The position numbers and the translations under genes were made by a program. Positions 2,607 through 63,966 of a DNA stretch of 64,000 nt are shown here, piece after piece. Below the pieces are notes generated by a model. That model was given only the letters and a program-made list of their open reading frames with translations, was not told the origin of the DNA and ran no database searches. Origin of the DNA: Panaeolus papilionaceus (lineage: Eukaryota; Basidiomycota; Agaricomycetes; Agaricales); assembly GCA_015501605.1 (NCBI GenBank), contig JADNRZ010000010.1:868001-932000 (forward strand), read 5' to 3'. Numbering within the stretch: position 1 is the stretch's first letter; every line of letters begins with the position of its first letter.

Positions 2607-3995
2607 ACTTCATTTCTTCGAATGCTGCTGGCTTGGTTTGATGTCTTTTTTGCCAATAAGCAATAAGTACGGCAAGGCGTCCCTCAATTTCAGACGAATT
2701 TTCAAGCGCCATCTTCTTTTCTTTACATTATTCGGGTTTTGAGTCAGGGTCGATGTTTTTGTCCTTTTCTGTTCAAATTGTCAACCCCTTTGTTTTCTGC
2801 CTCGTTTTTCTGACCTGCGAATATTTCAGCAAGTAACGACGGCTTTCAAACCGTCACCATGATGAAAGCCGGTACGCAATTGAGAAGTGACAGCTGCTTG
2901 ATAGTGACCCTTGATAGGCATTTTGAAGTTGCTGTGAAGCGGGGTTCAATAAGGCTCGATTTGTTCCCCAGCTTGGTTGTTCCTTTCTACTTTTTCTAAA
3001 CCTTAGCTGAAATTAATACGCAGACCCTTTGAGGAGTTAAGGGTCCTTTACAATCCAGAAGTCTTTTTAGTGACGTCTTGGAATATGAAATTTCGAATGA
3101 AAGGAATGACTTGGAAGGAAGGAAGTCGCTAATCAAGGACAGAGCACATGCATTTGGACATGTCGACACTCCGTGTCGCTGTGTATCAGTATGGCCTTCT
3201 GTGCTTGGGTGAGGGGTTACTACTTACAGAAGACACACCGACGTTCTGTCGATATAGGCTCCTGAACGTCTCACCGACATCTACATATCATTGATATGAG
3301 AAGCCCCTATGTATTCATAGCCTCTCACCATCATCAGCTCAAACTGACAACGCGTCTGTTAGGGAGGATATAATCAATGAACGATTCCCCATGCCCATAG
3401 ACTTGTCTATTTGGTGCATACCCAAATATACACACGACTTATAAGTAGCACACTGATGATTGGATACCGCGGTTCGCAAACGGAGGCTGGGCTTTCGTAG
3501 AGACGTCATTTTGGGTGTTTCGATGGTTGTGCACATGTGGAGATATCTACCACTTGTCATCTCTGTCTGACCTCTTGCATGTATATAGATGTCCAAACTT
3601 CAAGATTGACGGCCAAACGACACCCCTCTTCCCTTCATCTTCCCCTTCATTCTCATTACTCTCTGCAGGCAGTTTTCTTCACCCCTTTGTGTCTTCTCCG
3701 ATAAGTCTCGGGCGGTGATCTGAGCAGCATCATTATATCGCTATTTTAAGTTTGGTGACCCTTGCCGGCATCAGCATTTTCCTTCATTTTGTTTTTTCGG
3801 GTCACCAAAGCTGTGGGTCTTGACGTCTCGTTATATCGAACATGGAACTGACCAAATCTGTTCAAGCGTGGAACACGGACTTTGTATATAGGAGCATAGA
3901 GAACAAAGATAACATTCCGATATCCTTGCTCCTCCTCTCGAGAATCATCGTACCCTCCCTCTTTACTTGCGTTCCTTCTACTATCGATCGAAAAG
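2607..3995. other. Intergenic region with promoter of the 3996 gene
   Basis: No convincing gene. The right part holds a TATATA-like box near 3893, about 100 bases before the ATG at 3996, and an 11-bp perfect inverted repeat at 3751-3761 / 3799-3809. The rest is AT-rich with stops in all frames. Confidence 0.6.
3751..3809. repeat. Perfect 11-bp inverted repeat upstream of the 3996 gene
   Basis: TTTGGTGACCC at 3751-3761 faces GGGTCACCAAA at 3799-3809, with a 37-base pyrimidine-rich spacer. It lies about 190 bases upstream of the start codon and upstream of the TATA-like box. It could be a pair of operator half-sites or a hairpin; function unknown. Confidence 0.6.
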
Positions 3996-4702
3996 ATGTC
4001 GACGTTTTCTAGTCATCCTTATAGCGCTGGGGCCAGCTACATTTATGCTAATGAGGTGAGCGTTATTCCGATACACAGACCACTGTCGAGAATTCTAATT
4101 GGTGAATGTAGACCGACAACGGAGCAGCAGAGGAAGGACCGCTGTCAATGTGGAATGGGAGCGCCGGGAGATATTACTACGAACAGAACCTTTTCATACC
4201 CACGCAAATAGTTTCCCCTTCGCTTGTTCACGCTCGGAGACTTGCAACAGCTCCTAGTACATTGTCTCTGGTGGGTTGCGCTCTATATTTCCATCGAGCG
4301 CCAGCTTCGTATACTAACCGAATAACTTGCAGCCGACGCTCTCTGATGGACAGTCCTCACCGCTTTTGTCACCGACAGTAGTTACTGGGGGACTTGAATC
4401 AGAGAACTACAGGAAATTCAGCACATCATCAACGACCACCAGTTTTAGTAGTGTGCGGGGGAAGACACCAGACATCATGATGTACGAATCCATCGAAATT
4501 CAAATCGATGCACCAATGGATCGAACAGATGTTTTAAAGAAGCAGATAACGGTTCGTACTATTCAGCTTAATACTCGAGAGCAATTTCTCACTCCGGAAA
4601 CAGAAAGTTAAGCAGACGCTCCGTGGAGTTGGCGCTAAGCTCGGCGTGAAGAAATGGGTTACACCAGCTCCAAATCCTCGAAGTTCTATGATTTATTCTT
4701 GA
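3996..4702 (+). CDS. Hypothetical small protein, unknown function
   Basis: Not a family I recognise. The spliced model has four exons: MSTFSSHPYSAGASYIYANE, then a middle exon rich in Ser/Thr/Tyr, an exon starting QPTLSDGQSSPLL, and a last exon encoding TLRGVGAKLGVKKW... and ending NPRSSMIYS with stop at 4700-4702. All junctions are GT..AG and keep frame. No signal peptide or membrane helix. The C-terminus is short and basic, the centre acidic (SIEIQIDAPMDRTDVLKKQI). A TATA-like box and an inverted repeat lie upstream. The last intron boundary is the least certain. Confidence 0.6.
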
Positions 4703-58841: not shown

Positions 58842-61146
58842 ATGCTTGATCTATATGCTCCTGAACTGCAGGAAATACGTGAAGCCTCCCTTGACCTCGT
58901 TATGGAGCTATATTCAACTCTAATTCCGGTTTCCTTGCGACCTGTGGAGGACACATTCTGGGACGAGTACAGTGTTAAAAAAAAACGAATCGGACTACAG
59001 GCTTGTGTTATTCTATGGCTTATGACTGGCTGCACCAAAGTTCCTCGTAAATTTCAGATTCAGGCAACAATAGCTGCGCTCTCGGGACAGGATGCTCTTC
59101 TGGATGTTGGCACTAATGCGGGCAAGACACTGTCCATGATCCTTCCTTGTCTGGTGTCTCCGGGTACTATGGCTATCGTTATCTCTCCTCTGAAGCGTCT
59201 TCAGGCTGTCCAAGTTCTCACATATGAAGAATACAAGCTCAAAGCTGTCGCTATAAATGAAGATACACTAAATGACAAAGATCTATGGAAGGTTTGCTTG
59301 CATACACACGCGCAAATTGTTTTCTGGGGCTATATCCTTCATTTTATACTAGGGAATCGAAACCGGAATGTTTCAAGTTTTGATTGTGCAACCTCATCAG
59401 CAATTCCTGATCCGACTACAGGGACTACGGGCCGCTACCTATAGGGGGACCCTTGCTACAGGTGCTACAGAGCACTACGTAGCACCCTGTAGTTCGGCTC
59501 CGAAAACCAGGAATTGCTGATGCTGAACAGTTGACATCAACTAATGGACATACTGCACGGCTGGCTCGCATCATTAACGAGAATCGGGCTTTTGTGAAAC
59601 TGATCAAACGCGTCCATGTTGACGAGGCTCACTTCATATACACTGCTGGCCTCCCCCACTATGGCCTCCCTGCGTTTCGCAGTGCTTGGGGTGGTCTGGG
59701 AGATTTTCGTGTCAAAATTGGACGCCATATCCCATTTCACGCTCTCTCAGGAACATTGCCCCCACATATCAAAGGAGCAATCATGGACAACCTCCTTTTT
59801 GAACGGAAGTCACTACTATCAATAAAACTCACCAGTAACCGGCCAAATATTACATATGCGACTCACGAAATTGCTAGGGAGCTCTCTGATTTTCGCAATC
59901 TTGACTTTCTCGTTCCTGTTCCCTATCCCGAAAACTGGGTAATGCCAAAAACCCTTGTATTTTATGACAAGATTGACTTGGCGACTGGCGCTGCAGCTTA
60001 TCTTGACCGCCGACTTCCATTACACCTCCAACAAACCGGCGTCGTCTGTCACTATCATGGTGGCATGTCTCAGGAATACCTGACATCTATTTATGACGAT
60101 TTTAGCAAAAGTGATGGGAAATGCAAACTCCTTCATGCAACGGAAGGCGCTTCAACTGTATGACATGCTTGTTTTCATTTCATTGTACTAACAACTCATC
60201 ATTAAAGGGACTCGATATCCCTGACATTGAGGTTGTAATTCAATACGGAATTTCTCGTGATGTCCCAACAACGCTCCAAAGGGGTGGTCGTGGCGGTCGT
60301 GGTTCCAAGGACGCGATCTTCGTCATTATGTATGAGCCCTGGGTCAACCTGATTGACCTTTCAACCTTGAAAAATGACTTTCCGGATCCCGACCACCCCA
60401 AAGATAAAATTCTCACCAAGGAATCTAATAAGCAAGATCGTTTAGGTTCAGCCATGATCAAAATCATTCATGGCGACACAACTTGTCTTCAGCAGCTGTT
60501 TTCTGTATACCTTGGTGACGAGACACCACAAGGTGAGTTATTTTAAACTAATGTATGTACAATGTCTAACCTTCAAAACTTAGCAAATCACTTCACTGCT
60601 CGGTGGTGTTGTGATCGTCATGAAAACGAAAGTGACCCATCAAGCAGCTTCCATTTGAAGGACATCTTCAGGGGTCGACTATTATATCGCGAGCACCACA
60701 CTGGTCACTTTTACTATGGTGACTTGAGCGAACCTGATCGATTCCGGATTGTTCCTGAGAAGAAAGTAAAAGCGTCAAGTGGAACACTTCGAAAACCGGA
60801 GCAACGTCAACTCCTTGCCATCCAACTTCGCACCTGGCGCAATTCAACACACTCAGCAAGCCCTCTTCGCGCCGTTTTTCCTTCAACATTCATTCTCGAC
60901 AAAAAGAGCATTGCCAAACTTGCCCGCTTGCACCCTTCTTCCTTTACTTCACCTGCTGACATTACAAAGCTCCTGGGTGAAACCGACGAATGGGGTCTAC
61001 AGTACTCAAATGACATTTACACAGTGCTACTCAAATACGATCAAGATCTGGAGATCAAGAAGAAAAATTCACAAATCAAGAAAAAATCAGATAAGAAGCA
61101 ATCAGAAACCGACAAAAACCTAGCCATGTTTGAATCAGCATCGTGA
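58842..61146 (+). pseudogene. RecQ-like DEAH helicase, interrupted by an inserted element
   Basis: Superfamily 2 DNA helicase related to RecQ. First in-frame ATG at 58842 (MLDLYAPELQEIREASLDLV). Motifs: KFQIQATIAAL (Q-like), Walker A DVGTNAGKTLS, ISPLKRL, DEAH in RVHVDEAHFI, LSGTLPP, LVFYDKI, the C-terminal lobe GLDIPDIEVVIQYG and the arginine-finger motif QRGGRGGRG. A Lys-rich tail ends the protein. Introns at 59292-59352 and three later ones, one with a TACTAAC branch site. Between CAA CCT (59392-59394) and GAA CAG (59525) a 130-base element breaks the frame and adds a stop, so the copy is probably inactive unless the element is spliced. Confidence 0.7.
59395..59524. mobile_element. Short inverted-repeat element (MITE-like) inside the helicase
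   Basis: CATCAGCAATTCCTG at 59395-59409 is perfectly repeated in inverse orientation at 59508-59522. The interior is palindromic (CTACAGGG..CCCTGTAG; GGTGCTAC..GTAGCACC). Removing 59395-59524 rejoins CAA CCT to GAA CAG, which restores a plausible helicase motif in frame. The target duplication would be CT or ambiguous. No ORF. Confidence 0.75.
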
Positions 61147-61298: not shown

Positions 61299-63966
61299 CT
61301 ATGCAACTGTGTCGTCATCAGGCCGGGTACCTAGTGCATCATCGTCATCTTGTATGTGAATTGTAATTGCAATGGGTGGTAATGTATCCTCTTCTCCCTG
61401 ATCCTGTTCAGTCTCAACATATTTATGGCCAGTGACCATCGCCTTCACCTTCCGATTAAATGTGGAAATTGTTGAGGATTTGAGCTTCTGTTCACCAACT
61501 GCCATTCCATCTACAACTGCAACAACCTTTGAGCTGTTCCGGCGATTTGGATTGTAAGCATCAAGCTTTTTATCCTGAATGTCATTAGCAACCAACCATA
61601 CAAGATGGTCAGTATTTGGTGTCGTGTGTGTCTTGCTCTGGTAGGATGAGCTCATCGTTAACGAGACCTGCCTCTTCAGCTTCTTGATCAGATGAACAGA
61701 TGCGGAAATGTTTCCCAAACGGTCCCACGTCGACTCCATCCCTTTCGCTTCCAAAAGCTCCTTCAGCTCTCCTATCAGGTGCTCAATATTGAGATCAACA
61801 CCCATACAGTGCCCCTCTAGTCCTGAGACGTTGACGAGAGAGTTGTCTCTCATGATATCACTGTATGAATGCCAGTGGTATGAAAGCCATTTGCCATCAG
61901 CTTAAAACAAACAGTAGACGGATTGAGAACATGCAAACGTACGCAAACTCTGGAGTCCAAACATGTTTTAGATTGTGGATAAAATGAAGAATCTCGGTGC
62001 AGTAGTTGTTGCCACCCAGACCACGAAATAGCATTGCTAGTTGGGGAAGAATGTCTTCAATACGGCCAATATCACCATCGGAAATGGCTTGTGAAAGCTT
62101 GGCAACGTAGAGGAGATTATGTGCCAGCAGGCGAAGATTATGGTGGGAAGCGTCCTTGCAAGCACCGTGTTTATGTTGATCTGGAGCAGGGACCTGGTCA
62201 TCAAGGTCTTGATCGACTTCAGCATCAGAGCTGTCGCTATCTGCATCAGTATCTTCCGAGCCAGAGTCTGGGTGGGTGAGAGGGGTGGTGTGATTCAACA
62301 GAATTTTCTCTGCTACCTCCAACAAATCCTGTTCAGTTGGCTTTTTTTCTTCGGCATACTTGGAGAGATTTTGATACCCTGCTTCCATTCGCCAAGCATT
62401 GAGGATAATCCCATCAAGAATTTGCATTAGCGCAGAATGGAGGGAATGAAAATCGGGGTGTTCGCCATTCAACCGTTTCTTATCCATGAGTGAAAAAAAA
62501 TACTCAAGGCTACCAGTAGACACAAGTGTTCCGCGGTGTGTGTGAAAAATCCCCCAGATAAGATTGAGCAATAGGTGAAAGAAGCCAATACCAAGCTGAA
62601 AAAAGTCCCTCCGAGTGAAACCGTTGACGTCCAGAGCTCTCAGAAGTTGGGCACCTCGTATTCGTGCATTTGTCATCTGGTCATTGAAGCTGGGAATTGC
62701 AATTTCAGACAGTTGTTGCTGCGTCATCTTCAGTTGATTGAGAAAGACATCATCATGATAAAGAATGTTGCCCCTAACAGTTGCCTCTTCAATTGTGGTT
62801 GCGCGGATAGGGAAGAACTGCGTGACATATCCAGCAGGCATAGGGCGACGTGGCTTATGTCGGAGAAAGGGAGACGTTTTGTGATGGGAAAATGCAGCAG
62901 AATATTTGGTGAGCACACGTACAACCCTCGTTTTAAATTGGAAGTGGACTGATGAAAGCTGATCAATACTTGGGCGCAGATCCCGATTGAAATCAACTCC
63001 CTCAGCTTTACGAGCACGTTCCAGGATGGGTGCAAGCTTCATTTGTTCTGGGGTGGCGCCTCGTAGTTTATAAACTACACCAAAGGTTCCGGAGGTGACT
63101 TTGGAGGGTCCTCGGGCGCCTCGTTGCTCAACAAATATTGATGTACTGATGTTAATGTTGTCGTAACAAAAGGCAAAGCAGCAGGTTAACGCAAGAGCCA
63201 CAGCTAACAACATGCAGTGGGTGGCAAGCTCCTCTATCGCTTTCAAAATGGAAGAGTAACTGACAGACAAGCCACAACGGTGCAGAGAGTCGATGGTCTG
63301 CCTGGAGCATCCACTGCTCCAGAGAAAAATTCCGAGGATTGTCTGTGAACCGAGTGACCGGTTGGAGCGTTGATAGCGAAGTTGACTGACAATCATGTTG
63401 CACGTCTGCACCAGAAACATTAAAAGTTGTAAATTTATTTTATGAGTTGTACTTACAGCGTATGGGCGCTTCTTTTTGTTTTCCTCTCGCCCGCGACTCG
63501 TCTGTGCAGCTGCCAGCAGTATCTCTGTGAGAACAGGCGTTTGAGCAGTGTTCCATGAAAGGTCCCATGCCTCAACGTATTCAGGCCTTATGGCTTCAGA
63601 GACTCCTGAGACCTTGTTAGCCTCATTTATGGTGTCCAGCTCATCCTCTATAGTGTCCTTGACAAGCAGAATAGCGTGTGGTTGCATCCAGGACATGAGT
63701 TTTTTGCGTCCACTGGTGCTTGACATGATACTGTCCAGAATCTTTGAAAGCTTTGGACTGGACTCGCGATAGAAGGCATGCCGGTAACTCCAATGCTCAG
63801 CATTAGATTCATCCAAGATGTCCAGAATTAAATCAAACGGGCTCAGTTGACCATCCTTGAGCATATTCAAAGCATCGTTGATTCGTTTAGCACGCGGCAC
63901 CCGAGATTGTTCGGAAAATGTATGTATTGAACCCATATCACTAAGAACGCGGTAAATTGGATACAT
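61299..63966 (-). CDS. DUF6589-like protein (5' end may lie beyond the window)
   Basis: Large protein of the kind seen as many copies in Agaricomycetes; function unknown, by analogy possibly of mobile origin. Seen: YVEAWDLSWNTAQTPVLTEI, QLRYQRSNRSLGSQTILGIF, a segment FCYDNINISTSIFVEQRGAR, TSGTFGVVYKLRGATPEQM, an acidic run DSGSEDTDADSDSSDAEVD, and the C-terminal VNVSGLEGHCMGVDLNIEH. A 51-nt intron (about 63405-63460, no stop in frame) joins RPYA to TCNMIVSQ; a second joins EFA to DGKWLSYHWHSY. The ATG at 63966 is plausible but an upstream exon cannot be excluded. Tail-to-tail with the helicase, 152 bases apart. Confidence 0.65.

Follow-up and report, generated by a model that had tools for sequence, protein, structure and literature searches.

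A non-autonomous miniature element, very probably of the PlavakaB group, interrupts a helicase gene of Panaeolus papilionaceus

In the stretch of DNA analysed here, referred to as the window (64,000 nucleotides of Panaeolus papilionaceus contig JADNRZ010000010.1, positions 868,001 to 932,000 of the forward strand, assembly GCA_015501605.1), an exon of a helicase gene carries an insert that is, very probably, a non-autonomous PlavakaB MITE, probably brought there by a Plavaka transposase. It represents a new MITE family within a known transposon lineage and, as an event, a tidy and fairly ordinary transposon insertion. Placement of the element among PlavakaB would rest on its termini, on the target-site duplications (TSDs) and on its terminal homology to a transposase-bearing element. 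Since it combines PlavakaB ends and TSDs with such homology, it is best regarded as a non-autonomous PlavakaB derivative, and, because a transposase is absent, as a MITE and not as a full PlavakaB transposon. A first-pass annotation of the same DNA had already pointed to the insertion; the present analysis adds the family, the elements likely to have mobilised the insert and an explanation of the extra CT at the right border.

The earlier description was of a 130-bp MITE-like insertion, with perfect 15-bp terminal inverted repeats (TIRs) enclosing nested palindromes. The insertion is real and its MITE-like nature is supported by copies, TIRs, TSDs and empty sites, but the element proper measures 128 bp. 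The additional 2 bp are the right-hand CT of the target-site duplication, as the suspicion of a copied CT at that end had anticipated (Table 1). Specifically, the two TIR arms are 100% complementary and form the longest perfect inverted repeat among the 25 listed of the 26 found between 58000 and 64000; the same exact arm pair, at a spacing of 80-110 bases, did not occur in any of 100 shuffles of the window. The nested palindromes also correspond to genuine internal pairing, with a predicted fold of -37.1 kcal/mol for the DNA strand (z = -8.9) and of -64.6 for the same segment as RNA (z -9.2), and 0/200 shuffles were equally good in either case. The element is without coding capacity and too short for a PF18759 transposase. 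In other words, it has the hallmarks of a MITE, being short, non-coding, uniform in length and dispersed in copies with TIRs and TSDs (seven 128-bp copies spread over six contigs).

Table 1. Features of the interrupted helicase gene and of the inserted element (window coordinates).
Feature	Position	Strand	Basis or remark
Helicase exon with DEAD domain	58857..59291	+	PF00270, E 4.6e-7; exon start provisional
Helicase exon interrupted by the element	59353..60157	+	limits predicted from GT-AG
Left target-site duplication, CT	59393..59394	.	final two bases of the proline codon; flank tally
Putative non-autonomous PlavakaB element (MITE), 128 bp	59395..59522	+	7 full copies in own genome; termini CATCA..TGATG
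Left 15-bp TIR, CATCAGCAATTCCTG	59395..59409	+	inverted-repeat search
Seven CTACR/YGTAG repeats	59416..59492	.	candidate transposase-binding sites
Stretch homologous to terminus of the 13.3-kb element C45:2183845-2197138	59434..59522	+	71%, 93 columns, E 9e-8 (search of 16 sequences)
Right 15-bp TIR	59508..59522	-	perfect complement of left TIR
In-frame TGA from right TIR	59518..59520	+	read from sequence
Right target-site duplication, CT	59523..59524	.	flank tally
Helicase exon with Helicase_C	60208..60532	+	PF00271, E 1.9e-5 on ORF 60121-60543; limits predicted from GT-AG
Last helicase exon	60584..61146	+	predicted limits; no Pfam match

The insertion point lies between the P and E codons of the helicase exon, and translation confirms the clean join reported earlier: when 59395-59524 is removed, ...QVLIVQP is joined to EQLTSTNGH.... 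Both the frameshift and the stop that had been described are found with the element in place, as 41 codons are read into it before the TGA of the right TIR and, 130 mod 3 being 1, the remainder of the exon is out of frame too. The insertion would probably leave the helicase truncated or disrupted, with loss of its function. Helicase paralogues had been proposed as the place to look for empty sites, and the same segment in all of them would have spoken against an insertion; by protein comparison, the three examined of the seven found align through the site without the segment (37-39%), the alignment having a single-residue gap a few positions downstream of it, and one of the three (L064) has a stop within the aligned exon. 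A search for an empty copy of the window site at the nucleotide level returned none.

A slim chance remains that the insertion is tolerated, the segment being spliced out as a new, introner-like intron from a donor GT at 59386 to an acceptor AG at 59529-59530. Such an intron would remove 145 nt, that is 15 more than the 130 inserted, thereby keeping the frame and shortening the helicase by five residues; moreover, the right TIR contains, about 10 nt before the AG, a CTGAT that resembles a fungal branch site. However, the donor GTGCAA appears by eye poor beside the gene's predicted donors GTTTGC, GTATGA and GTGAGT, the left end of the element supplies no GT, and the product would lose VQPEQ, whose EQ is kept in the three paralogues examined. 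Introner elements are short DNA-transposon-like insertions in coding sequence; in contrast to them, the element described here supplies no splice donor and, judging the splice contexts by eye, there is no sign of its copies acting as introns.

The first-pass annotation had advised a search for further copies with the same repeats, and in the organism's own genome (50.85 Mb, 71 contigs) seven full 128-bp copies were found on six contigs, together with some fragments. Five of the copies are mutually 0-3 of 128 positions apart (98-100% alike), the C56 copy being identical to that of the window, and the other two form a second group, differing from one another at 7 positions and from the first five at 22-27. 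Scanning the genome for the terminal 15 bases with one mismatch gave 34 forward and 36 reverse matches, whereas the reversed control pattern gave 2 and 1; the related CATCAGCAATTTCTG gave 58 and 53, its control 0 and 0, with 100 of the 111 places listed. The exact 15-bp terminus is found in the seven 128-bp copies and at five solitary ends. For four of the latter (C8:1078452, C24:6046, C70:1236974 and C70:1482598) no partner end was present within the stretches examined, and the match at C70:1236974, which falls in a reading frame, is probably due to chance. The fifth, C37:176075, terminates a diverged copy (L043, about 3740-4001) that, by eye, is split by a small insert with ends GGTCCTTA..TAAGGACC, a structure that is probably one MITE nested in another. 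Taken with an empty site that is 99-100% alike, the near-identity of the copies suggests that movement has probably been recent.

The seven copies are flanked by CT/CT, TA/TA, TT/CT, AA/AA, CT/CC, TT/TT and AA/AA, so that an exact 2-bp duplication accompanies five of them (CT, TA, AA, TT, AA) and a 3-bp match none. A wider tally of 20 elements, a subset of those in the genome made up of the 7 MITEs and the 13 larger elements fetched with both ends (for the structure at C22:84205 the outermost end pair was taken), gives 15/20 exact 2-bp duplications and 0/20 of 3 bp; against a simple chance of 1/16, base composition ignored, the former corresponds to a P of about 1e-14. Among the large elements, those on C4, C31, C14 and C45 are flanked by AA, TG, TT and CA, respectively. 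Five of the 20 are without an exact 2-bp duplication. Three of these (L003, which is the C70 copy, L005, which is C7:1035955, and L040) have a single C between the right end and a matching dinucleotide, and the remaining two (L039 and C3:1046500) have flanks without any match. By inspection, C7:1035955 can be read as CT/C-CT and L040 as AA/C-AA; the TT/CT of the C70 copy would be best read as a TT duplication plus one extra C beside the right end, and it is for this copy, among the three, that empty-site coordinates back the extra C.

In the available text of PMC12730594, Plavaka is grouped with EnSpm/CACTA in the CMCT clade, and PlavakaB families are characterized by termini 5'-CATCA..TGATG-3' and TSDs of 2 or 3 bp. 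The element has CATCA..TGATG termini and, at the window site, the 2-bp duplication CT/CT; it encodes no PF18759 and can thus be a non-autonomous derivative at most. Its TIR core, CATCAGCAA, bounds elements of 20.8, 21.1, 14.5 and 13.3 kb (on C4, C31, C14 and C45, respectively), each with internal matches to the PF18759 Plavaka transposase. In particular, a reading frame of the C45 element matches PF18759 (2.6e-66) and DUF6830 (1.4e-30), and one frame of the C4 element matches DUF6830 only. Homology extends to a transposase-bearing member itself, as positions 40-128 of the MITE align with the C45 element right at its end (Table 1), and comparable matches reach the ends of several 1.5-2.8-kb relatives. 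The CTACR/YGTAG motif, chosen after viewing the element, has a density of 5.5 per 100 bp across the MITE, where 1000 single-base shuffles average 0.37; in the 13 larger elements the corresponding values are 1.5-6.5 in the terminal 200 bp and 0.1-0.7 in the middles.

Tc1/mariner, PIF/Harbinger, hAT and mutator-like groups usually leave duplications of TA, 3 bp, 8 bp and 9 bp. That the element is a MITE of one of these other superfamilies, Plavaka-like at its ends only, is very unlikely: many MITEs form a hairpin of such a length and have short inverted repeats, but the exact duplications are of 2 bp and go beyond TA, and the homology found directly to the end of an element that carries PF18759 argues against such an origin. 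A Tc1/mariner or PIF/Harbinger MITE was rejected specifically, the duplications being of 2 bp and mixed in place of TA or 3 bp.

As to the source of mobility of the PlavakaB MITE, no larger element with an identical 15-bp terminus was found in the 1-mismatch whole-genome scans (for the related CATCAGCAATTTCTG, among the matches listed); the mobilising transposase would therefore come from a related element, or else the direct parent has been lost.

Other PlavakaB-ended structures were observed along the way. At least 21 TIR pairs lie 1.5-2.8 kb apart, by eye and among the matches listed (for example L039-L042, L059 and L060), and in L039-L042 the longest wholly internal frame has at most 115 codons. 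An open frame giving the impression of a tyrosine recombinase has the L042 copy at its end. A 4.2-kb PlavakaB-ended large inverted duplication (L058 501-4719, corresponding to C22:84205-88423) consists of two TIR-bounded halves of 1607 bp each, oriented in opposite directions, and has TG/TG as its outer duplication.

Uninterrupted target loci exist for 4/4 of the other copies tested (C22, C56, C7:1238381 and C70), the tests having taken in four of the six other copies and left out C7:1035955 and C8:1155785. For the C22 copy there are five Copia-type empty loci, 96-98% alike, and in the one that was read AA is present once. The C56 copy has one empty locus (97-99%), with TA present once. One locus 99-100% alike, besides more distant ones, matches the surroundings of the C7:1238381 copy with a 2-bp overlap by alignment coordinates, and in the empty loci of the C70 copy (85-87% alike) the alignment coordinates likewise overlap by two bases. 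That 59395-59524 might reflect an error of assembly or a chimaeric read is hardly credible: nothing beyond the existence of a single assembly speaks for it, and the seven copies occupy different sites, four of which have uninterrupted versions.

The surroundings of the MITE copies are varied. The C22 copy is found at the end of a frame with the Copia-type domains PF22936, PF25597 and PF13976, the C7:1238381 copy is in multi-copy sequence with a Transposase_21 frame (PF02992) roughly 570 bp away, and the C70 copy, also in multi-copy sequence, has a distant PF18759 match (75.9 bits) at about 2 kb. The C56 copy resides in a sequence that has one other locus and the C8 copy near a glycosyl hydrolase 3 frame; Pfam returned no family for the frames beside the C56 (L002), C70 (L003) and C7:1035955 (L005) copies. 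Going by Pfam matches, at least two copies out of seven would be nested within, or adjacent to, other mobile elements, with a third near a distant Plavaka match, seven copies being too few for a claim of target preference.

With regard to the interrupted gene itself, the helicase (window 59000-61146, +) is arranged tail-to-tail with a DUF6589 (PF20231) gene (61897-63966, -). A DUF6589 match lies within about 10 kb of 7/8 helicase matches in the genome, the window one included, in convergent orientation in five cases and divergent in two, and at least three DUF6589 loci (C19, C31 and C34:2292956) are without a nearby helicase match. No mention of DUF6589 was found in the literature searched. 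The helicase and DUF6589 together look like a repeated two-gene module, which is possibly mobile.

How the MITE would have reached the helicase can be outlined from these features. The 128-bp element is probably a miniature deletion derivative, consisting essentially of two PlavakaB ends brought together, and the Plavaka transposase would probably be supplied in trans by larger elements elsewhere in the genome, as their shared ends suggest. The transposase would recognise the CATCAGCAA.. ends, with the CTACR repeats as probable further recognition sites; the 128-bp piece would then be cut out and pasted at a target cut with a 2-bp stagger, generating a 2-bp duplication, here CT. A single event of this kind would have set the element between the P and E codons of the helicase exon, with the resulting frameshift and stop. 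On a broader scale, we tentatively consider, as something short of an even chance, a recently active three-tier PlavakaB system, composed of 13-21-kb elements with transposase, 1.5-2.8-kb mid-size elements and the 128-bp MITE.

MITEs deriving from CACTA and other cut-and-paste transposons are short, non-coding, uniform, TIR-ended and hairpin-forming elements, thought to be moved in trans. The element resembles this general CACTA-type class in length uniformity, lack of coding capacity, TIRs and hairpin, and differs from it in the low copy number (7 full copies) and in the parent lineage, which is Plavaka. Compared with PlavakaB transposons as presented in the available text of PMC12730594, it shares the CATCA..TGATG termini and the 2-bp TSD and has relatives in the same genome that encode PF18759; unlike them, it is 128 bp long and non-coding, and its exact 15-bp terminus is not common to any larger element found. 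In Marasmius oreades, according to the accessible portion of PMC8290104, short non-autonomous DNA elements, mostly under 1,000 bp, are classified by the TIRs and TSDs of autonomous relatives, and Plavaka, which together with KDZ makes up about half of the DNA-element content, is termed understudied. The same recognition of a non-autonomous family is applied here, and Plavaka is among the groups of that genome, a comparison made by description only. Because short non-autonomous elements are classified there by autonomous ends, similar elements may be catalogued, and Plavaka-derived short elements may already be in that repeat library. As for other sources, in the parts available, MITEs are defined as a general class of TIR elements of 50 bp-1 kb without transposase (PMC11075540), MITE (8 families) and Plavaka (28 families) are given in separate table rows (PMC7473861), and non-autonomous hAT and Tc/mariner elements are covered with one mention of a Plavaka deletion (PMC9674265). 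No description of Plavaka-derived MITEs was found in the available text of PMC11075540 and PMC7473861, in a search conducted outside subscription literature, supplements and repeat databases.

For the host, the consequence is one further gene likely broken by a MITE. For the transposon lineage, a derivative of 128 bp that retains intact ends hints that very little sequence may be enough for Plavaka transposition, and, with copies this alike and empty sites this closely matched, related strains offer a way of testing for recent movement. If the three-tier system were true, it would provide a ready-made minimal substrate for Plavaka transposase assays, including the extra-C variant.
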